Source: Rubrivirga sp. SAORIC476 (GTDB lineage Bacteria > Bacteroidota > Rhodothermia > Rhodothermales > Rubricoccaceae). From it: 64,000 bases of DNA. The stretch covers positions 856,798 to 920,797 of the forward strand of contig NZ_MVOI01000003.1 in NCBI RefSeq assembly GCF_002283555.1. Reading direction: 5' to 3'. The notes beneath the pieces are model-generated. The model did not search any database. It worked only from the letters and a program-made list of their open reading frames with translations, and had not been told where the DNA came from. Shown here piece after piece: positions 26,933 through 62,136 of the stretch. Each line of letters starts with the position of its first letter. The first letter of the stretch is position 1. Both the position numbers and the translations under genes were made by a program.

Positions 26933-28642
26933 TCAGGAGCGGGCGGCGGAGACCGCGTCGAGCAGGGGTGCGAGCGCGTCGCGGTCCACACGGATCGAGA
27001 AGCGCTCGCGGAGGCGGGCCACGGCGGCCACGAGGCGGCGCTGGGCGAAGGGGATGTCGAGGGCCTCGCGGGCGAAGGGCTCGGCCTCGGCGACGGTCAT
27101 GGGGCGGGACGGCAGGGTCTCGCCGCGCTCGATGAGGGCGTAGCGCCCCTCCACTTCGGTCGGCCCGACGACCGTGCCGGGCGCCGCGGCGAACACGGCC
27201 TCGGCCATGCGGCCGAGTTGGGCGCGGGTGACCGGTCCGAGGTCGCCCCCGGCGGTCGCGGCGCCGAGGCGGAGCGAGTGGGCGCGGGCGAGCGCGTCGA
27301 ACGACTCCCCGGCGAGGAGCCGCGCGAGCAGCCCGTCGGCGTCGGCGCGGGTGCGGACCAGGATCTCGCGGGCGCGGACGCGCTCCGGCATCCGGTACAG
27401 GTCCGGGTGCGCCGCGATGGTTGCCCGGAGCGAGTCGGCGGGGATGTCGTCCGCCAGCCGGAGGCGGCGCTTGGCGACCTCGAACGTCCACTCGGCCATC
27501 TGGTCGGACACGATGCGCGCGAGGCGCGGGTCGCGGTCCAGCCCGGCGCCACGGGCCCGCGCCGTCAACTCCTCGCGGACGAGCAGGCCCTCGATGAACG
27601 CGCGGAGGCTCGCACCGTCCTGGACCGCCGCGCGCTGGCGCTCGGTCATGGTCGCAGCGCGGTCCTCCACGTCGCCCACGGTCCACGCGTCGGCGGCGAG
27701 GGCGTCGGAGTCGAAGCGCACCAGCGGGGTGCGGCGCCACTGGGCCAGCGCCTCGGCGTCGAGGCCCGGGGCCACGCCGGTCGCGAAGGCGACGAGCCGG
27801 TCGAAGGCGGCCTCGTCGAAGCGGGGCGCGAGGTCGTCGCGGACGGTGCGGCTCAGCCGGAACCGGGCGTCGTTGCGCTTCCGCTTGCGGACGTAGCGGC
27901 GCACCTGGTCGATCTTGGTGGCGAAGGCGTCCTCGGTGAGCAGCGGGTTCGTCGTCCGCGCGTCGACCCGGATCACGGAGTAGCCGGTCGCGGTGCGGAC
28001 CGGCTCGGAGACTTCGCCGATGGGCAGGCGGAAGGCCACGGCCTCGAACGACGGGTCCATCTCATCGTGGCCGAACGCGCCCAGGTGGCCGCCCGAGGCG
28101 GCCAGGGCCGAGTCGGCGAACGTCTCGCGGGCGAGCGCCTCGAACGTCTCCCCGGCGAGGAGCCGGACGCGGAGCGCCTCGGCCGTGGCGTGGTCGCGGG
28201 CGTAGAGGTGCCGCGCGTCGTACGTCGTGTTCATCTGCGCGAACGTCTCCCGCAGGTCCGCGTCGGTGACGGCGAGTTCGTCGCCGAGGGTGGTCGCGGT
28301 GTAGAGGTCCACGAGCGCCTTCGTCTCGGCGAGGTCGCGCGCCGCGCGGTACTCGGCGGTCTGCTCGATGCCGTCCGCGCGGGCCTCCTCGATGAGCAGT
28401 TGGCGACTCACGAGGCCTTCGACCACCTCGTTCAGCGCGCCGGCCCCGCCCGGCGCTCCAGCGCGGACGACCACCTCGGCGTACGCCTCGGCCACGTCGT
28501 CCAGGGTGATGACGCCCTCCCCCACGCGCGCGACCACCGTCTCGCCGACACGGGTCTCCGCGTCGGCGGCGCACCCCGCCCACAGACCGAGGCCGAGCAG
28601 GAGGGCGCCCAGAGGCAGCATGGAGGAGGCTCGGACCGTCAC
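26933..28642 (-). CDS. PpiC/SurA-type peptidyl-prolyl isomerase lipoprotein
   Basis: 569 residues. Lipobox LWAGC near residue 24. There is an N-terminal SurA-N-like helical region and two parvulin domains: one around residues 130-225 (ARHLYARDHATAEALRVRLLAGETFEALA ... GGHLGAFG) and one around 385-485 (REILVRTRADADGLLARL ... GGDLGPVT). It would assist folding of outer-membrane or secreted proteins in the periplasm. GTG 28642 overlaps the lacI stop as GTGA and supplies an Arg in the n-region; ATG 28621 is the alternative. Its location between lacI and a TonB receptor suggests a dedicated chaperone for the receptor or porin of this cluster. Confidence 0.83.
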   Translation of the reverse strand: MTVRASSMLPLGALLLGLGLWAGCAADAETRVGETVVARVGEGVITLDDVAEAYAEVVVRAGAPGGAGALNEVVEGLVSRQLLIEEARADGIEQTAEYRAARDLAETKALVDLYTATTLGDELAVTDADLRETFAQMNTTYDARHLYARDHATAEALRVRLLAGETFEALARETFADSALAASGGHLGAFGHDEMDPSFEAVAFRLPIGEVSEPVRTATGYSVIRVDARTTNPLLTEDAFATKIDQVRRYVRKRKRNDARFRLSRTVRDDLAPRFDEAAFDRLVAFATGVAPGLDAEALAQWRRTPLVRFDSDALAADAWTVGDVEDRAATMTERQRAAVQDGASLRAFIEGLLVREELTARARGAGLDRDPRLARIVSDQMAEWTFEVAKRRLRLADDIPADSLRATIAAHPDLYRMPERVRAREILVRTRADADGLLARLLAGESFDALARAHSLRLGAATAGGDLGPVTRAQLGRMAEAVFAAAPGTVVGPTEVEGRYALIERGETLPSRPMTVAEAEPFAREALDIPFAQRRLVAAVARLRERFSIRVDRDALAPLLDAVSAARS

Positions 28643-29676
28643 GCCAGTTCGCGGATGGCTTCGCCGGTGGTCTCTCGGAGGACGAGGTCCGGCGAAAACA
28701 CGGTGTGCACGGGGTCGGCGCCGGGGGCTTCCAGGCGACGGACGAGGTGCTCGGTGGCCAGCTTGCCCATCTCGTACATGGGCTGGCGCACGGTCGACAG
28801 GCCGACGTACGCGCTCGACTCAATGTCGTCGAACCCGATCACCTCCAGGTCACTGGGGGCCTCGAGCCCCGCCTCGCGGACGGCCCGAAGCGCTCCGTAG
28901 GCCATCACGTCGGCCGCGACGAAGATGGCCGTCGGGCCGTCGGGGCGCCCCTCGAAGCGCTGGAGGAGCGTGCGCATGGCGCTGTAGCCCGCAAACAGCG
29001 TGTAGCCGTCGTGGTCCAGGTCCATGTCCGTGTGCACGATCAGGTCGCTGTCCACCGGCAGCCCTGCATCCCGCAAGGCATCCTCATAGCCTGCCCGGCG
29101 CCGGTCCGACGGGACCGAGCCTTCCACGGGCAGCACCAGCCCGATCCGCTCGTGCCCGCGCTCGATGAGGTGCCGCGTCGCCACGGCCCCGCCCTGGCGG
29201 TTGTCGACAGTCACCGAGTCGATCTCCGGCTGGTAGGCGTCGATGAGGACCGCGGGCTGCCGGGAGGCCGCGATGCGCCGGACGCGGACCGCGTCGAGGG
29301 GGGTCGAGACGAGCAGCAGCCCATCGGCACGCCCCCGCTGGACGGCGCGGTCGAGCTGCCCGCCGATGCCGTCCAGCGTCCGGCTGGCGTACACCACGAG
29401 GTCGTAGTGGCTCGCGTCGAGCCGGTCCTGGATGCCGCGGAGCACCTCCATGAAGAACGCCGACGTCATGATGGGCACGACGGCCGCGATCAGGCGCGTG
29501 TTCTTGCGGGCGAGGCTCTGCGCCGTCGCATGGGGCTGGTAGCCGAGTTCGCGCGCGACCTCGAACACCCGCTCCCGGGTCGCGTCGGACACGCGCGGGT
29601 GCCCGTTGAAGGCACGAGACACGGTCGCGATCGAGACCTGGGCGCCTTCGGCGATGTCGTAAATCGTGACGGGCAT
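28639..29676 (-). CDS. LacI-family transcriptional regulator
   Basis: 345 residues. The N-terminal helix-turn-helix and hinge are canonical (MPVTIYDIAEGAQVSIATVSRAFNG at 1-25, LARKNTRLIAAVVP near 55). A periplasmic-binding-protein-like effector domain follows, with the usual IGFDDIESSAYVGLSTVRQP segment near 285. ATG 29676 is set by the HTH. It heads the minus-strand alpha-glucan run and its promoter carries two copies of a TGGAAGCGCTTCCA-type palindrome, so autoregulation is likely. The same motif lies at the mannan receptor and symporter promoters, which points to a regulator common to both blocks. The effector sugar is unknown. Confidence 0.9.
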   Translation of the reverse strand: MPVTIYDIAEGAQVSIATVSRAFNGHPRVSDATRERVFEVARELGYQPHATAQSLARKNTRLIAAVVPIMTSAFFMEVLRGIQDRLDASHYDLVVYASRTLDGIGGQLDRAVQRGRADGLLLVSTPLDAVRVRRIAASRQPAVLIDAYQPEIDSVTVDNRQGGAVATRHLIERGHERIGLVLPVEGSVPSDRRRAGYEDALRDAGLPVDSDLIVHTDMDLDHDGYTLFAGYSAMRTLLQRFEGRPDGPTAIFVAADVMAYGALRAVREAGLEAPSDLEVIGFDDIESSAYVGLSTVRQPMYEMGKLATEHLVRRLEAPGADPVHTVFSPDLVLRETTGEAIRELA

Positions 29677-29690
29677 GCGGAGGAGAGTAG

Positions 29691-29704
29691 CGTAAGCGCT
29701 TCCA
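29691..29704. promoter_or_regulatory. LacI-type operator O1 at the lacI start site
   Basis: CGTAAGCGCTTCCA matches the palindrome TGGAAGCGCTTCCA at 12 of 14 positions. It lies immediately downstream of the -10 box, over the predicted transcription start, where bound repressor would block initiation. Confidence 0.7.
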
Positions 29705-29732
29705 CAATAGCACCAATCCACCGGGGCGTCAA
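29704..29732 (-). promoter_or_regulatory. lacI sigma-70-type promoter
   Basis: Read on the minus strand: -35 TTGACG (29727-29732), 17-bp spacer, -10 TATTGT (29704-29709). It is well placed for the LacI gene and the long run behind it. Confidence 0.65.
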
Positions 29733-29760
29733 GGCCAACCCTCAGTGAGGCCACCAAAAA

Positions 29761-29774
29761 TGGAAGCGCTTCCA
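29761..29774. promoter_or_regulatory. LacI-type operator O2, perfect palindrome
   Basis: TGGAAGCGCTTCCA, an exact 14-bp palindrome resembling LacI/CcpA-class operators. Its centre is 70 bp upstream of the O1 centre, a distance compatible with repression looping. Confidence 0.75.
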
Positions 29775-49317: not shown

Positions 49318-52300
49318 TCAGAGCCGGATGCGGGCCCCGATGTCCATCGTGAACCCGTACAGCTCGCGGTAGCTCAGAGAGTTCTGGCTGAAGCTGTAGT
49401 CCGGGGCGGCCGTGTTCTGATTCGTGTAGGTCTGGTCCGGCCGGTTGTTCAGGTTGTTGAAGTTGGCGAACAGCTCCAGCCCCCGCGGCAGCTGCTGGCG
49501 CATCGAGAGGTCGAACCGCGAGTAGTCGCCGACGAACGTGTCGAACAGCGGGTTCTGGGGATCGACGTAGGCGGCCGTGTTGCTCTGGAAGAGGTACGAG
49601 ACGCGGGTCGAGAACCCCTTGAAGTCGTACCCCAGCGTGACGTTGGCGATGTGCGCCGCCTGGTCCGGCATGCGGCCGGTCCGCGAGGAGTCCCGGAACG
49701 TGACCACGTCGGTGCAGAGGCGCCCCTGGCACGTCCGCTCCACGTTGCGGATGACGTAGGCGTAGGTCGCCTCGGAGAACGAGCGGGTGTAGTTCAGGTT
49801 GAGGACGAGCCCCCGCAGCGCCCCCGGCAGGTACGAGAAGTTGGTCTGCCACTCGAGCTCGTACCCGTAGAAGGTGACCGGCTCGGGGTTGTTGGCGAAC
49901 GTCTGCAGCCGCGGGTTGGCGCTGCCGGTGTACCACTCCTCCGGGATGTTCGTGCCCTCCAGCAGGCCCGGCGGAAGTTGGTCCGGGAGGACGCTCGGGT
50001 AGCGGACGGCGAAGATCAGGTCGTCGACCTCCTTGTAGAAGCCGGACACGCCGACCAGCCCGAGCGTGCCGTCCACCACCTGCAGCGACGCGTCGTAGTT
50101 GACCGCCTGCGCCGGGCGGATGTCGGTGTTGGCCGCCGTGATCTGGAAGTTGAACACGTCGATCGAGGCGATCGGGGCGTACTGGCTGAAGTCCGGCCGC
50201 GTGATCGTCTCGGTGCGGGCCAGCCGGAGCGACGCCCAGTCCGTCGGGCGGATGTCGAGGTGGACCATCGGGAGCCAGAAGCCGTTCTCGCGCTCCTCGG
50301 TGATGCGCTCGAAGGCGCTCGGCGGGGCGCCCGGCGTCGCCCCCGTGACCTCGCGGAAGACCTGCCCGTTGTACCGGGCGTAGTCGCCCTCGTAGCGGAC
50401 GCCCGGGATGAGGGTCGCATACCGACCGATCTCGAACCGGCCCATGATGTACCCCGCCGCGTAGCGCTCGACGCCGTCGTAGTCGCGGCCGGCCGAGTCC
50501 AGCTGGTCGGGGAAGATCTCGTTCGCGTACTCCTCGGGCGTCCCGGCCGGGTTCGGCGAGCATCGCTCACTCTCGAGCCCGTTGAGCACCGTCATCAGCA
50601 TGTCGAAGTCCGGCACGAGGCCGAACCCGAAGTCGCCGTCGAGGAACGACTCGCGCTGGTAGTCGGAGAGCACGTCCGTGATCGGGAGCGACCCATCCGC
50701 GAACGACTCGGCGAGGCCAGGCACCGACTCTTCGAGGCACTGGAACAGGTCGGCGTCGGGGTACTGGAGGTTGCCGCGCGCGCGGCGGTTGTTGTCGAAC
50801 GTCCGGTCGAGCCAGCGCAGCTTGCCGCCTGTCTTGATGTGACCGCCGAGCCAGCTGGTCAGCCGGAACGGAGCCTGGACGTTGAGTTGGAGCGCCGTCT
50901 GGTTGTCGTCGAGGCGCGTGTCGTCCACGTAGACCTGCGACAGGGTGATCGTGGAGTCGACCCGGAGCAGGGGGCCGAACTCGAGGGCCGGGACCCCGAA
51001 CAGCCCCGACTGGCCCAGCGTGAACCCGGTCCCGTCGTCGGTGAAGGTGAAGCCGGTGCTGCCCGGGTTGTCCGCGCGGGAGCGCGTCAGCGAGCCGGTC
51101 ACGTCGTACCGGATGGCCCCGAAGTCCTGCTCGATCCCGAGCGCGCTCGTCAGCACAGACACCGTCCCCCCCACGTCCTGGACGGAGTAGTTCAGGTTGT
51201 TCTCCGTCGCGCCCTGCAAGCGGTAGAAGCCGTCACTGCGGAGCTCGTTGTAGAACGCGTTCGCGGTGACGCGCCCGAGCGGGACGGTGTAGTCGAGGAG
51301 CAGGCTGCCGCCCGACCGCCCCCGCGTCACGGTCTCCTCGCGCGTGTTGACGCTGTTGACGTAGGCGATGCTCTCGCCGGTCTCGGCGTCCGAGGACTGG
51401 CCGTAGCCGACGCTCACCTTGTCCGCACTCCGGTCGTAGGAGTCGGTGTTGAGGGTCGCGATCAGGCCCACGCGGTCCCCCCAGAAGCGGTTGCTGACCG
51501 TCCCGACGAACTTGTAGTTGCCGTACGCATCCTGGAGCCCGGTGTACCCGCCCTGGCCGAGGAGGTCCAGGTTGAGGCCCGAGGGCGCGTTGCGAAGGCG
51601 AAGGTCCACCGACCCGCCGACGGCGTCGCCGTCCATGTCGGGCGTGATCGCCTTGCGGACTTCAATGCCGCCGAGCACGTTCGACGAGACGAGCGAGAGG
51701 TCGACCGACCGGTCCCCCTCGCCCGTGCTCGGCAGGCGGACGCCGTTGACGGTGACGGTGTTGTACTTCGGCGACAGGCCACGGATGGCGACCCGGTTCG
51801 CCTCCCCACCCGAGCGCTGGATGGCGACGCCCGGCAGGCGGCCGATCGACTCGGCCGCGTTGTTGTCGGGGAGTTCCTGGATGCGGTCGCTGGAGACCAC
51901 GTTGCCGACGGTGGCGCTCCGGAACTGCTCGTTGATGGCCGAGAGTTGGCCCGCGACCTGCGCCGTCACCGTGACGCCCTCCAGGGTCTGGAAGCTGAGG
52001 GCCACCTCCACCTCGACCGTCCCCCCGTCAGGGACCACCACGGCCAGCGTATCGCTCACGTAGCCGACGTACGACACGACCAGCGACTGCGCGCCCGAGG
52101 GCGCGTTGGGAATCGTGAACCGCCCGTTCACGTCTGCCGAAGCCCCGATCGAGGTGCCAGCGATGCGCGCGCTGGCCCCGATGAGGGTCTCTCCCGTCGC
52201 CGCGTCCGTGACCGTACCGACGATGCGCCCGGCGAAGGGGGTGGCGGCGGAGGCCGGGGCCGCCAGTGCGACGACGAGCGCCGCGAGTGCGAAGGCGCGA

Positions 52301-52323
52301 ATCCTGGAAAGGCGCGGAGTCAT
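49318..52323 (-). CDS. TonB-dependent receptor (mannan block)
   Basis: 1001 residues. Signal peptide (cleavage near ASAATPF, ~27), CarbD domain (GTVTDAATGETLIGASARIAG, ~35-110), plug (INEQFRSATVGNVVSSDRI, NNAAESIGRLPGVAIQRSGG, ~130-170; DMDGDAVGGSVDLRLRN) and a large beta-barrel. The plug pattern is of the Xanthomonas/Caulobacter-type oligosaccharide receptors (TIGR01782-like) rather than classical SusC. It should import manno-oligosaccharides. It has its own promoter overlapped by a LacI-type operator and is followed by a beta-helix protein rather than SusD. Confidence 0.9.
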   Translation of the reverse strand: MTPRLSRIRAFALAALVVALAAPASAATPFAGRIVGTVTDAATGETLIGASARIAGTSIGASADVNGRFTIPNAPSGAQSLVVSYVGYVSDTLAVVVPDGGTVEVEVALSFQTLEGVTVTAQVAGQLSAINEQFRSATVGNVVSSDRIQELPDNNAAESIGRLPGVAIQRSGGEANRVAIRGLSPKYNTVTVNGVRLPSTGEGDRSVDLSLVSSNVLGGIEVRKAITPDMDGDAVGGSVDLRLRNAPSGLNLDLLGQGGYTGLQDAYGNYKFVGTVSNRFWGDRVGLIATLNTDSYDRSADKVSVGYGQSSDAETGESIAYVNSVNTREETVTRGRSGGSLLLDYTVPLGRVTANAFYNELRSDGFYRLQGATENNLNYSVQDVGGTVSVLTSALGIEQDFGAIRYDVTGSLTRSRADNPGSTGFTFTDDGTGFTLGQSGLFGVPALEFGPLLRVDSTITLSQVYVDDTRLDDNQTALQLNVQAPFRLTSWLGGHIKTGGKLRWLDRTFDNNRRARGNLQYPDADLFQCLEESVPGLAESFADGSLPITDVLSDYQRESFLDGDFGFGLVPDFDMLMTVLNGLESERCSPNPAGTPEEYANEIFPDQLDSAGRDYDGVERYAAGYIMGRFEIGRYATLIPGVRYEGDYARYNGQVFREVTGATPGAPPSAFERITEERENGFWLPMVHLDIRPTDWASLRLARTETITRPDFSQYAPIASIDVFNFQITAANTDIRPAQAVNYDASLQVVDGTLGLVGVSGFYKEVDDLIFAVRYPSVLPDQLPPGLLEGTNIPEEWYTGSANPRLQTFANNPEPVTFYGYELEWQTNFSYLPGALRGLVLNLNYTRSFSEATYAYVIRNVERTCQGRLCTDVVTFRDSSRTGRMPDQAAHIANVTLGYDFKGFSTRVSYLFQSNTAAYVDPQNPLFDTFVGDYSRFDLSMRQQLPRGLELFANFNNLNNRPDQTYTNQNTAAPDYSFSQNSLSYRELYGFTMDIGARIRL

Positions 52324-52389: not shown

Positions 52390-52417
52390 AGTATATCAAT
52401 CAATTTGATTATCGCAA
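52390..52417 (-). promoter_or_regulatory. promoter of the mannan TonB receptor
   Basis: Minus strand: -35 TTGCGA (52412-52417), 16-bp spacer, -10 TATACT (52390-52395), in an AT-rich island unusual for this genome. The predicted leader is about 60 nt. Confidence 0.55.
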
Positions 52418-52426
52418 GCGCTTCCG
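52413..52426. promoter_or_regulatory. LacI-type operator overlapping the receptor -35 box
   Basis: CGCAAGCGCTTCCG matches TGGAAGCGCTTCCA at 11 of 14 positions with the AAGCGCTTCC core intact. A weaker copy (GCGCAGCGCTTCCA) lies at 52509-52522, centred 96 bp further upstream. Confidence 0.62.
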
Positions 52427-52573
52427 GGTTCAGGAGGGCAAAAAAACCGGTCCATGCAGCCATCGGGCGTCCATCCGGGGCTGCATGAGGGCGAGTTCGC
52501 CGCGGCCCGCGCAGCGCTTCCAGGCCGCGAGGGACCGGGTTGCCTTGCCTCACGGACTTCCAGGCGGTATCCC

Positions 52574-54919: not shown

Positions 54920-56124
54920 CAGGCCGTGACGGAGGCGTCGGCGCGCTCCAGGATTTCGAGACAGGCGCGGGCGTTGTGGTAGGGGCACTTCCAGGGCCCC
55001 ACCTTGTCCTCCTCGCGGTACGGCGTCCCGTCGCGGGCGACGCGGAAGAACCACTCCCCGCCCTCCCGGTCCACGACGGTCGACTGGATGAAGCGCCACG
55101 TCTGCGTCGCGGCCTCGGCGAAGGCCGCGTCGCCGGTGCGCTCGAAGGCGTTCAGGAAGCCGACCACGGCCTCGGCCTGCGGCCACCAGTGCTTGTCGGT
55201 GTCGAGGTGGCCGCCGTCGCGCTCGTTGAACACGCCCCCGTCGGCGTCGAGGGCGTCGAGCGTGAGGCGCGCGATCCGCAGAGAGGCCTCGCGGACGCGG
55301 TCGGTGAGCGACGGATCTCCCAGCACGGCGGCCGCCTCGTCGAGCAGCCAGCTCGCCTCGATGTCGTGGCCGTAGGAGACGACCGTCGACACCGGCGCCC
55401 AGTCCATCCCGAAGAAGCACCCGAGGTGGCCCGTCTCGGCGTCGATCACGCGGTCGAGGAACAGCTCGATGAGCGCACGGAGCCGCGCGGCCAGCCCGGC
55501 GTCGGGCCAGACGCGGTACAACGTCGTGTAGGCCTCCAGCACGTGGAGGTGCGTGTTCATCGACTTCGGCGCGTCGGCGTCCTTCTCGCTCAGGCGGACG
55601 TCGGCGAGGGGGGTCCAGTCGCGCGCGAAGGCCTCGATGTAGCCGCCGTGCACCGAGTCGACGGCGTGCTCCTCGATTCGCCGGTACAGGCTCTCCGCCC
55701 AGGCCAGCGCCTCCGCGGCGTCGTCGCCTTGCTGGCGGACGTGCTCGGCGAGGGCGTAGACGGTGAACGCCTGCGCGTAGACCTGCTTCTTCGGGTCCAC
55801 CGGCGTGCCGTCCGGCGCGACGCTCCAGTACACCCCGCCGTGGACGGGGTCTCGGAAGGCGTCGCGGAGCGCCTCGTAGGCCCGATCGGCCTCGTCGCAC
55901 CACCGGTCCGTATCCAGCACCCGGCACGCGGACGCGAAGGTCCACAGGATGCGTGCGTTGAGGACGCTCCCCTTGGGCGCGCCCCGGACCAACCGGTCGT
56001 ACCCGTCAATGCGCCCGACGAACCCGCCGTGCTCGACGTCGACCGCGCGGTTGGCCCAGTACGGGAGGATGTGATCGGTCAACTCGGTGCGAGCGCCGTC
56101 GGCGAGGGCGTCCAGAGTGTCCAT
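54919..56124 (-). CDS. AGE-family cellobiose/mannobiose 2-epimerase
   Basis: 401 residues, cytosolic, an (alpha/alpha)6 barrel of the N-acylglucosamine 2-epimerase superfamily. Catalytic-site segments: NTHLHVLEAYTTLY near 193, VSYGHDIEASWLLDE near 250, KHWWPQAEAVVGF near 315 and KCPYHNARACLE near 378, giving the conserved His/Trp/Arg set. It converts beta-1,4-mannobiose to mannosyl-glucose by epimerising the reducing-end sugar. It is encoded directly after, and overlapping (TGATG), the GH130 phosphorylase that consumes that product, which strongly supports the mannobiose assignment over lactose/cellobiose conversion alone. Confidence 0.92.
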   Translation of the reverse strand: MDTLDALADGARTELTDHILPYWANRAVDVEHGGFVGRIDGYDRLVRGAPKGSVLNARILWTFASACRVLDTDRWCDEADRAYEALRDAFRDPVHGGVYWSVAPDGTPVDPKKQVYAQAFTVYALAEHVRQQGDDAAEALAWAESLYRRIEEHAVDSVHGGYIEAFARDWTPLADVRLSEKDADAPKSMNTHLHVLEAYTTLYRVWPDAGLAARLRALIELFLDRVIDAETGHLGCFFGMDWAPVSTVVSYGHDIEASWLLDEAAAVLGDPSLTDRVREASLRIARLTLDALDADGGVFNERDGGHLDTDKHWWPQAEAVVGFLNAFERTGDAAFAEAATQTWRFIQSTVVDREGGEWFFRVARDGTPYREEDKVGPWKCPYHNARACLEILERADASVTA

Positions 56125-57362
56125 CAGGAGTGGGCAGCGAAGGCACGGTTCTTCTCGATCAGCGCGAGTCGCTGCTCGACGACCGCCGCCGAGCGGAGCC
56201 CGTCCGGGGGCGTGTGGAGCACGTAGTCCACCAGCCGGTCGACGGTGCTGGTCGCGACATGGAGGCGCGTGTCGGACGAGGCGTAGTAGATGAACACCGT
56301 CCCGTCGTCGTCGGCGATCCAGCCGTTCGCGAACGTGACGTTCGACACGTCGCCGACGCGCTCGGCGCCCTGCGGCTCGATGAAGTGGCCGCCCGGCGCG
56401 TGCGTCACCCGCCACGGCTCGTCGAGCGCGGTCATGAACAGGTAGGTCACGTAGCGCAGCCCGGCCGCGGTGTTGCGGACGCCGTGCGCGAGATGGAGCC
56501 AGCCCTCGGCCGTCTTGATCGGCGGCGGTCCCTGGCCGTTCTTGACCTCCTTGATGGTGTGGTACACGCGAGGGTCCACGACCTGCTCGGCCTCGACCCG
56601 CGCGCCGTCCATCGTGGGCGAGGTGCCCCAGCCGATGCCGCCGCCGCTGCCTGCCGAGATGAAGCCATCCTGCGGGCGCGTGTACAGGCCGTAGGCGGGC
56701 TTCCCGTCGGGGCCGTCCACGAACTCGGGGTGGAGGACCACGTTGCGCTGCTGAGGGCTCGGCGTGACGAGATCCGGGAGGCGCTCCCAGCTCACGAGGT
56801 CCTTCGTCCGCGCGATGCCGCACTGGGCGACGGCCGCCGTGAGGTCGCCCGTGGCGTGCGCCTCGGCGTCGGCGCGCTCGGTGCAGAAGAGGCCGTAGAT
56901 CCAGCCGTCCTGGTGCGCGGTGAGGCGCATGTCGTAGACGTTCGTGTCCGGGTCCTCGGTCTCGGGCATCACCAGCGGCTCGTCCCAGAACCGGAACCGG
57001 TCCACGCCCGTCGGGCTCTCGGCGATGCCGAAGAACGACTTCCGGTCGGCCCCCTCGACGCGGGCGACCACGAGGGTGCGCCCGTCGAGCCGGATCGCCC
57101 CGGCGTTGAAGGCCGCGTTCACCCCCATCCGCTCCATCATGAACGGGTTGGTGGCCGGGTCGAGGTCGTAGCGCCACTCGATGGGCGCGTGCGCGCCCGT
57201 GAGGACCGGGTGGCGGTACCGGGTGTAGATCCCGTTCCCGAGCGTCTCCGGCTCGTTCTTGCGATCGATGAGCGCCTCGTGGGCGCGGCGGAGCGCCGCG
57301 AGGCGGGCGTGGGTAGAGAGGTACGCGGCGGGAACGCCGTCGCCGGAAGTGGCCAGGGCCAT
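56124..57362 (-). CDS. GH130 4-O-beta-D-mannosyl-D-glucose phosphorylase
   Basis: 412 residues, cytosolic, five-bladed propeller family GH130 (subfamily 1-like). Features: [20 protein letters not shown] near 61-80, VNAAFNAGA near 81, the probable catalytic Asp144 in [11 protein letters not shown], and [14 protein letters not shown] plus [17 protein letters not shown] (phosphate and +1-site segments). It phosphorolyses mannosyl-glucose to mannose 1-phosphate and glucose. The neighbouring 2-epimerase makes its substrate. The gap to the GH1 gene upstream is only 7 bp. Confidence 0.93.
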
Positions 57363-57369
57363 CAGGAGA

Positions 57370-60752
<3,383 letters not shown>

Positions 60753-60764
60753 CGGCAGGGCGGG

Positions 60765-60778
60765 GAGAAGCGCTTCCG
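60765..60778. promoter_or_regulatory. LacI-type operator at the symporter start site
   Basis: GAGAAGCGCTTCCG, 11 of 14 matches to TGGAAGCGCTTCCA, placed over the predicted transcription start and 13 bp before the symporter ATG. Confidence 0.65.
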
Positions 60779-60779
60779 C

Positions 60780-60811
60780 CGAAGCTAGCCCGTCGGAATC
60801 AATAAATCAAA
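60780..60811 (-). promoter_or_regulatory. Bacteroidota-type promoter of the symporter operon
   Basis: Minus strand: -33 TTTG (60808-60811), 20-bp spacer, -7 TAGCTTCG (60780-60787; one mismatch to TAnnTTTG). The region also holds TTGACT (60816-60821) on the plus strand, a possible -35 for the divergent ROK gene, though I see no good -10 for it. Confidence 0.6.
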
Positions 60812-60879
60812 GTTTTTGACTATTGAGTCGTCTCGTCTCGATTGGTGGGCCGTCGTACGTTCGCGGAGCCCTGCTGCTC

Positions 60880-62136
60880 ATGCTGACCGGAACGAACCTC
60901 ACCCACGCCAAGCGGCACAACCTCCAGATCGTCCACGAGACCATCCGGCTGTTCGCGCCGATCTCGCGCGCCGACGTGGCGCGGCGGACCGGTCTGACGG
61001 CCCAGACGATCTCCAACCTCGTCCGCCAGCTCATCGACGCGGGGCTGGTGGTCGAGACGGCCCGCGCCACCGGCAGCCGCGGCGCGCCGCCGATCCAGCT
61101 CGAGGTCAACCCAGACGCCGCCTTCGCGGTCGGCCTCGACCTCGACACGGACCACTTCACGGCGGTTCTGGTGGACCTGGCGGGCGTGGCGCGGGCGCGC
61201 ATCCACCACGAGGTGTCGCTGGCCTCCCCCGCCGCCGCGCTCGACCTCTGCGCCGAGACGACGCACGCGCTCGCCGCCGAGCTGGGGCTGCGGATGGACC
61301 AGATCTGGGGCGTCGGGGTGGGCATTCCGGGCCCGATGCGGCCGGGACCGGACGAGACCTACCTGGTCAGCCCGATCGCCTTTCCGGAGTGGCACGACGT
61401 GCCGCTCGCTGAGCAGCTCCACGAGCGGATCGGGCTGCCGGTGTTCATCGAGAACAACGCCACCGCGGCGGCGCTCGGCGAGCACTGGTACGGCGCCGGG
61501 CGCCACCTCTCGACGTTCTTCTACGTGTACCTCGGCAGCGGCCTCGGCGGGGGCCTCGTGGTCCAGGGCGCCCCGTTCGACGGCCACACGGGCAACGCGG
61601 GCGAGATCGGCTACCTCTCCCCGCGCCGCGGCCGGGTGGAGGACGGCCCGACGCACGTAGGCGAGCTGTTCAACATCGGGTTGCTCTACCAGCGACTGGC
61701 AGCGGCCGGCGTCGACGCCGCCACCCCGGACGACCTGCTCGCACTCCACGACGCGAGCGAGCCCGCCTTCGAGGCGTGGTTCGCCGAGGCGGCCGACGAA
61801 CTCGCCGGGCTCCTGTTCACGGTCCGCGCGATCCTCGACCCGGAGGCCACGTTCGTCGGCGGGCGGTGGCCGGACCGGCTGCTGGAGCGCCTGCTGGAGC
61901 GGGCCCGCGCCCACCTCGGTGCCGCCGTGGTGCCCGGTGGTCTCGAAGCGCCGTCGATCCGCCTCGCCACCGCAGGCGCCGACGCCGGGGCGCTCGGGGT
62001 GGCCTCGCTGCCCCTCTACCACGCCTTCGCGCCGCTCCAGCGCACCTCCCTGCGTCGCGCCGACTCGACCGACGCGGCCGTGATGGACGACAACGGCACC
62101 GGCTCGGCCTTCAAGCGTCCGGGCGGGCTGAGCTGA
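60880..62136 (+). CDS. ROK-family transcriptional regulator
   Basis: 418 residues from ATG 60880 (the frame is open to 60823). An N-terminal winged helix (APISRADVARRTGLTAQTISNLVRQLIDAGLV, ~24-55) is followed by a ROK sugar-kinase-like domain: VGLDLDTDHF (~87), GVGVGIPGPM (~145), VFIENNATAAALGE (~188), YVYLGSGLGGGLV (~216) and GHTGNAGEIGYL (~238). The usual Cys-rich zinc motif (CxCGxxGC) after the ExGH segment is absent. It is the only plus-strand gene of the mannan block, divergent from the symporter operon, and probably senses a mannan-derived sugar to control it together with the LacI regulator. Confidence 0.9.
   Translation: MLTGTNLTHAKRHNLQIVHETIRLFAPISRADVARRTGLTAQTISNLVRQLIDAGLVVETARATGSRGAPPIQLEVNPDAAFAVGLDLDTDHFTAVLVDLAGVARARIHHEVSLASPAAALDLCAETTHALAAELGLRMDQIWGVGVGIPGPMRPGPDETYLVSPIAFPEWHDVPLAEQLHERIGLPVFIENNATAAALGEHWYGAGRHLSTFFYVYLGSGLGGGLVVQGAPFDGHTGNAGEIGYLSPRRGRVEDGPTHVGELFNIGLLYQRLAAAGVDAATPDDLLALHDASEPAFEAWFAEAADELAGLLFTVRAILDPEATFVGGRWPDRLLERLLERARAHLGAAVVPGGLEAPSIRLATAGADAGALGVASLPLYHAFAPLQRTSLRRADSTDAAVMDDNGTGSAFKRPGGLS

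Follow-up and report, generated by a model that had tools for sequence, protein, structure and literature searches.

This locus raises the question of whether a single regulator controls the use of two different polysaccharides. A stretch of 64,000 nucleotides from Rubrivirga sp. SAORIC476 (G000:C3:856798-920797, here called the window, from a genome of 4.48 Mb in 19 contigs with 70.7% G+C) carries a starch block with its own lacI gene and a mannan block, and copies of the palindrome AAGCGCTT stand before genes of both. An earlier note on this DNA had proposed that the starch-block LacI represses mannan uptake as well as itself, giving a regulatory hierarchy between polysaccharides. We find two classes of operator that share a core, and we lean, if only somewhat, toward a reading in which class A (GTAAGCGCTTAC) would be read by the starch-block LacI and class B (CGGAAGCGCTTCCG), which takes in the mannan sites, would be read mainly by a sister LacI encoded elsewhere in the genome.

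Four exact copies of the core AAGCGCTT lie in the window (at 29691, 29761, 52413, and 60765) against 0.39 expected, and the core is absent from the window's other intergenic regions, as the earlier note had stated. Matches with up to three mismatches number nine against 1.88 expected, a count reached by 0 of 100 shuffles; four of the nine (54039, 56776, 58574, and 60412) were missing from the earlier list, all of whose positions, including a weaker one at 52509, were confirmed. The proximal lacI operator, O1 (CGTAAGCGCTTCCA, 29691..29704), begins at the final base of the −10 of the lacI promoter (TTGACG-17-TATTGT, 29704..29732, minus strand) and lies between that −10 and the start codon, and the distal operator, O2 (TGGAAGCGCTTCCA, 29761..29774), lies 70 bp upstream of O1. 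In the mannan block, CGCAAGCGCTTCCG (52413..52426) overlaps the −35 of the receptor promoter (TTGCGA-16-TATACT, 52390..52417, minus strand), the spacer of which is filled by an AT-rich stretch, and GAGAAGCGCTTCCG (60765..60778) precedes the symporter ATG (60752) by about 13 bp. Placing every site at a promoter holds for 29691 and 52413, but a promoter-like pair looked for near 60765 was not found, and this site adjoins the symporter start rather than lying over it. Because sites lie over a −35 or between a promoter and a start codon, the bound protein would act as a repressor.

The genome was scanned for the motif, with the reversed pattern in the same genome as the control for site counts. 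There are 9 sites of the form GGAAGCGCTTCC (1 for the control) and 22 of the form GNAAGCGCTTNC (10 for the control), and the 8-base core alone occurs 76 times against 52. Among the 17 GNAAGCGCTTNC sites annotated with a crude gene call, 15 are intergenic; the remaining five of the 22, of which three lie in the window, likewise seem intergenic, one depending on the start codon chosen. The frequency of the bare core is what could be said for chance palindromes, but the excess of GGAAGCGCTTCC, the intergenic placement, and the conservation of sites at orthologous promoters make that explanation scarcely credible. Site and control counts elsewhere were 11 and 4 (G002), 30 and 10 (G003, from the same genus as the window genome), 22 and 13 (G004), and 16 and 18 (G007).

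The GNAAGCGCTTNC sites of this genome precede genes for phosphoenolpyruvate carboxykinase (pckA), fructose-bisphosphatase (fbp), glutamate dehydrogenase (gdh), trehalase, ETF dehydrogenase, a sugar transporter, a second glutamate dehydrogenase (identified by eye), a class IV aminotransferase (ilvE), a GH31 protein, and a GH5 protein, and one site lies inside the start of the reading frame of an E1 dehydrogenase. A TonB receptor gene that follows kduI (G000:C3:943167-946280; L109, L005), about 22-25 kb past the right end of the window, has two upstream sites 79 bp apart. The sites named in the earlier note are real, but the motif is also common before unrelated promoters, which that note had named as refuting its claim and which counts against the claim at least in part.

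Several of the central-carbon genes have conserved sites in several genomes. Upstream of pckA, the 12-mer is intact in 11 of 50 genomes and matches at 10 or more of its 12 bases in 23 of 50; it stands as a conserved island in six genomes of the window's family and is absent in two others, G005 and G008. The gdh site was found in G000 (by Pfam) and in G003 and G004 (by eye), the fbp site in G000 and, by eye, in G018, and the class IV aminotransferase site in G000 and, by eye, in G004. A GGAAGCGCTTCC site also lies upstream of the gene for a short PAS-fold protein in G020 (L332) and G046 (L353), possibly a sensor belonging to this network, and G019 may encode a related protein (L347, with no Pfam match).

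The outer bases of the palindrome vary with the function of the gene downstream. Complete site lists were made for seven genomes (G000, G003, G004, G018, G019, G020, and G046; gene calls in the compared genomes are crude), and in these class A precedes alpha-glucan genes and lacI, and class B precedes pckA, fbp, glutamate dehydrogenase, glycine cleavage, and TonB receptor genes. An alpha-glucan gene or the starch-type lacI lies downstream of 10 of 14 strict class-A sites (GTAAGCGCTTAC) versus 1 of 42 strict class-B sites (GGAAGCGCTTCC; Fisher 2.8e-7), in tallies that were compiled by hand, with unnamed genes counted as other and several class-B genes named by eye from their N-termini. The single class-B exception is O2 of the window. 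With the lacI rows removed, the figures are 6 of 10 versus 0 of 41 (Fisher 1.2e-5). The clearest case is G018, in which class A stands at genes for GH13, glycogen phosphorylase, GH77, LacI, a solute-binding protein, and a porin-like protein, and class B stands at pckA, fbp (by eye), gcvP, and one unknown gene (6 strict A, 4 strict B, and 2 mixed sites; 1 for the reversed control).

A log-odds score for A over B, from a matrix built on 29 lacI sites and another built on 12 pckA sites, places all seven scored mannan sites on the class-B side (−4.1 to −9.8), two of them without the exact core; the seven exclude the G004 receptor site CGGAACCGCTTCCG and the G015 sites TGGAAGCGGTTCCC and CGGTAGCGCTTTTG. 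In the window, the receptor site (−6.5) and the symporter site (−7.7) are class-B-like, as is O2 (−4.1), the weak match GCGCAGCGCTTCCA (52509..52522, 3 mismatches) scores −4.75, and O1, at −0.14, is intermediate. The score separates 11 alpha-glucan sites from 32 other named sites (area under the curve 0.884, P 8e-5). In G004, a malic enzyme site scores +2.4, which puts it on the A side, and two amylase sites score −0.1.

The starch-block LacI (28639..29676, minus strand; 345 amino acids; helix-turn-helix [HTH] VSIATVSRAFNG) belongs to the LacI family, with PF00356 (1e-17), PF00532, and PF13377 (1.3e-34) all above cut-off, corresponding to an N-terminal HTH and a periplasmic-binding-protein-like core. 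A search of 60 genomes with this protein gave a match in 56, and the best 30 matches, the window's own locus included, were taken as the ortholog set of its clade, here called clade A (the alpha-glucan type, as placed in the LacI tree); the orthologs are 46-76% identical to it. In all 30 of these loci AAGCGCTT lies within 160 bp of the HTH, in 23 the strict form GTAAGCGCTTAC is present, and in none is GGAAGCGCTTCC the nearest site. One or more additional NAGCGCTT sites are present in 8 of the 30, and in five loci (G000, G001, G003, G007, and G029) a GG-type distal site lies 107-128 bp before the HTH. Even palindromes with a central CG, often autoregulatory, are described as a LacI-family feature in a survey of this family (PMC4052901), and the palindromes here have this form and stand close to the HTH throughout the set, which supports assigning them to the LacI type of operator. 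Autoregulation of the starch-block LacI through its AAGCGCTT sites is very probable, as the earlier note had it, and through class A this protein would repress the alpha-glucan genes together with itself.

A candidate reader for class B comes from the same protein family. The genome encodes five proteins with a LacI HTH, one of which falls in a clade (clade B) that is sister to clade A in a tree of 69 LacI proteins, all from this one order (joint branch 100/99); the tree left out some LacI proteins, whose HTHs were read separately, L142, L316, and L318 not being among those read. Clade B, with the HTH VAISTVSR, occurs in 13 of the 15 families, with f6 and f9 left untyped. In G000 its gene lies at G000:C2:57854 and is followed by purC, and in G002 a thiD-like gene precedes it. 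No consistent palindrome was found before the clade-B gene, although G046 has CCGAAGCGCTCCGG there. We propose that this protein would be a global carbon regulator and the main reader of class B, with gluconeogenesis, amino acid breakdown, and the uptake of several polysaccharides, mannan among them, as its targets. The presence of such a paralogue goes part of the way toward what the earlier note had named as fatal to its claim, namely, another LacI binding these sites.

The distribution of the two clades bears on which protein reads which class. The search gave two LacI matches in G046 (98% complete), each at 40% and one of them in clade B; clade A was not found there, yet class-B sites are kept at pckA, a GNAT gene, and the PAS gene, each with a counterpart identified by eye in G020. 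The only two LacI matches of G018 are one of clade A and one of clade B, and both operator classes are present. In G052 and G057, where no clade A was found, the pckA sites are weaker (10 of 12 bases), and that of G057 lies inside the aligned start. The pckA site is missing from all five genomes that yielded neither clade (G005, G006, G008, G021, and G053) and from all four examined in family f14, in which the clade-B HTH has diverged (VSISTVSR); GKAAGCGCTTMC was not found in G041 (control 2). Distance also speaks for a reader other than the starch LacI, as the clade-A lacI and the mannan locus are about 760 kb apart in G003 and on separate contigs in G004, yet the symporter site is kept in both genomes and the receptor site in G003.

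Several observations weigh against clade B as the main reader. G007 has class-B sites, including that at pckA, and none of its five LacI-HTH genes is of clade B (91% complete, 300 contigs). No pckA site at 10 of 12 bases was found in 14 of the 33 genomes with a clade-B LacI (28 of them placed in the tree and 5 by HTH letters only, with the pckA promoter examined in all). The site occurs in 20 of 36 genomes with clade A versus 3 of 14 without it, which means that co-occurrence by itself cannot decide between the clades, and on these two counts the pckA site was rejected as a marker of clade B. Site counts do not exceed the reversed control in G046 (6 versus 6) or in G007. Four of the 14 strict class-A sites stand at genes that are not clearly of alpha-glucan use (a porin-like gene, a solute-binding protein, an SSF symporter, and a saccharopine dehydrogenase), and the named genes in the matrix test were hand-picked. 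The recognition helices also differ little (VSIATVSR versus VAISTVSR), and cross-binding to some degree is likely because they are so alike.

Some of these observations would be expected if the starch-block LacI alone bound all of the sites, those of the mannan block and of central metabolism included, and were itself the regulator of the hierarchy. The G007 genome, which has clade A, and the association of the pckA site with clade A both favor this, as do the identical AAGCGCTT core, the partly class-B character of the protein's own O1 and O2, and its presence in all of the genomes whose mannan symporter site is conserved (G000, G003, and G004). However, proximal autoregulatory sites are never GGAAGCGCTTCC in the 30 loci, the class-B promoters of G046 persist where clade A was not found, and the outer bases separate alpha-glucan genes from other targets. 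We regard control by this protein alone as unlikely, if not strikingly so. The shared core and the mannan sites stand from the earlier claim that the starch LacI represses mannan uptake, but the step that makes the same protein responsible is not supported, and the outer bases group mannan with the central-metabolism class.

A further possibility, which overlaps with the word "mainly" in the reading that we prefer, is that each paralogue binds sites of either class but with a graded preference, and the mannan and lacI promoters would then integrate two signals by competition. The sister relationship of the clades and their similar recognition helices are in keeping with this, as are the mixed sites, seen upstream of lacI in the window and of amylase-type genes in G003 and G004, and the pairing of a proximal AAGCGCTT with a GG-type distal site in the lacI promoters of five genomes. 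Indifferent binding would hardly allow gene functions to stay separated by operator class, and we consider shared binding a real possibility that nonetheless falls short of an even chance. The motif, its conservation, the link of operator class to gene function, and the phylogeny are observed here, whereas which protein binds, with what sign, and in response to what effector are points that we infer from sequence.

For the other LacI proteins of these genomes, the evidence for reading the motif was less favorable. The C6-type LacI is an unlikely reader, having at its promoter an operator of its own, TGTAACCGGTTACA, in G000 and G003 (with one mismatch in G002); GGTAGCGCTTCC stands directly before its start codon in G000 (C6:721144-721306, L013) and G002 (L141), which possibly reflects control by the class-B regulator. 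C6-related LacI genes with upstream TGGAAACGTTTCCA palindromes were seen in G019 (L315) and G010 (L319). The C18-type LacI was set aside, as it has no shared upstream palindrome and G005, in which it is the only type found, has 1 site against 4 for the control. However, AAGCGCTTCC precedes the gene downstream of this LacI in G000 (L228, C18:543-556) and in G004 (L210), a point against clade B as the main reader, and the C18-type protein may read the motif too. That downstream gene could be a local target of the C18-type LacI or one of the class-B regulator; the locus in G007 (L135) has no site. The 960k-type LacI was rejected on account of its diverged HTH. A further type (SVGTVSAV) has CGGAAGCGGTACC shortly upstream of its HTH in G001 (L145) and G002 (L147).

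Whichever protein reads them, the mannan receptor and symporter sites are probably functional, because the first is kept in G003 and the second in both G003 and G004. The receptor site is CGGAAGCGCTTGCA in G003, where the upstream region is CGGAAGCGCTTGCAATAATCAAATTGATTGATATACT, compared with CGGAAGCGCTTGCGATAATCAAATTGATTGATATACT in the window, and the symporter site is kept near the start as CGGAAGCGCTTCCC in G003 and CGGAAGCGCTTTCG in G004. The receptor region has CGGAACCGCTTCCG at another place in G004, CGGAAGCGCTCCCG in G009, TGGAAGCGGTTCCG in G014, and both TGGAAGCGGTTCCC and CGGTAGCGCTTTTG in G015; no such site was seen in this region in G010, G024, G050, or G028, nor in the symporter region of ten more distant genomes, where the symporter usually seems not to head its operon. 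The 260 bp that precede the G003 receptor hold no counterpart of the weak match at 52509, which is probably nonfunctional.

The mannan block itself comprises two GH26 proteins, a GH5-like/CBM35 protein, a GH130 mannooligosaccharide phosphorylase (56124..57362, minus strand; PF04041, 1.8e-16), a sodium:solute symporter (58827..60752, minus strand; PF00474, 1.8e-29), a TonB-dependent receptor (49318..52323, minus strand; PF07715 and PF13715), and a divergent ROK-family regulator (60823..62136, plus strand, with a true start that is probably later; PF00480, 5.1e-31, and MarR_2). The ROK protein is a candidate local mannan regulator and could conceivably control the mannan genes by itself, the AAGCGCTT sites there being relics. 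Its gene diverges from the symporter, with its start also upstream of the symporter in G003 and G004 (L181 and L213), and the AT-rich stretches of the mannan promoters are conserved in G003, including the one in the spacer of the receptor promoter, and largely in G004. However, AAGCGCTT is a conserved island at the symporter (G003 and G004) and at the receptor (G003), and an operator for the ROK protein is not established, so that sole control by it appears improbable. A conserved AT-rich stretch at about 60785-60830, between the ROK gene and the symporter (AATCAATCGTTTTGATTTA in G003), may be a ROK operator; no clear common palindrome was seen by eye in the AT-rich stretches of the two mannan promoters. 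On the starch side, a protein with two PPIC-type rotamase matches (26933-28642) lies between lacI and the alpha-glucan TonB receptor, which is unusual in a starch operon.

The window LacI reaches none of the curated NCBIfam cut-offs with which it was compared. CcpA of the Firmicutes is a global LacI-type regulator of carbon use whose cre site resembles the operator described here, but the window LacI falls far below the ccpA model (TIGR01481, E 4.5e-53, 180.8 bits against a cut-off of 442.35). It is also a weak match to FruR/Cra (PRK11303, 67.8 bits against a cut-off of 385), whose operators differ from these. The closest name for clade A is presumably that of the MalR-type local LacI regulators of maltose and starch use, which it would resemble in its predicted autoregulation and in the GH13, GH31, GH77, and glycogen phosphorylase genes behind class-A sites. 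Since no curated family cut-off is reached, the name applies by function only.

Clade B has its nearest parallels among global regulators. The LacI survey names CcpA, FruR, PurR, PckR, GapR, and GluR as global regulators, from Firmicutes, Gammaproteobacteria, and Alphaproteobacteria, with only one Bacteroides group within its coverage, and describes such regulators as less often autoregulated than local ones and as commonly not clustered with their targets (PMC4052901), in which last respect clade B is like them. FruR/Cra of the enterobacteria is a LacI-family regulator of glycolysis and gluconeogenesis, and PckR of the Rhizobiales is mostly unclustered with its targets, of which pckA is among the most conserved, along with other central-carbon genes (PMC4052901). 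Unlike PckR, the system described here belongs to another phylum and has polysaccharide receptors and amino acid catabolism among its targets, and the two are likened by targets, not by orthology. Cur of Bacteroides is a master carbon regulator in the same phylum (PMC10294740) but is Crp/Fnr-like rather than LacI-type. A transcriptome paper on Rhodothermales places LacI genes beside glycoside hydrolase clusters, and the word "operator" is absent from the text available (PMC7409140). In searches of the literature on LacI and carbon catabolite regulation in Rhodothermales and Bacteroidota (RegPrecise and subscription journals aside), including the accessible parts of that paper and of PMC10766802, no such regulon was found.

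The regulatory hierarchy between polysaccharides survives in an altered form, as a putative wide LacI regulon of the CcpA/Cra/PckR kind in Rhodothermales that probably includes mannan. The chances are close to evenly balanced, if slightly on the unfavorable side, that carbon control throughout this order would rest on a local alpha-glucan repressor and a purC-linked global sister LacI, with operators differing only in the outer bases of the palindrome, the global protein setting gluconeogenesis, amino acid catabolism, and the uptake of several polysaccharides, with the gene of its starch sister as a further target in some genomes. If true, testable rules would follow for the polysaccharide that a marine and thermophilic group consumes first, and the system would be a clean natural example of operators that diverged once a gene had been duplicated.
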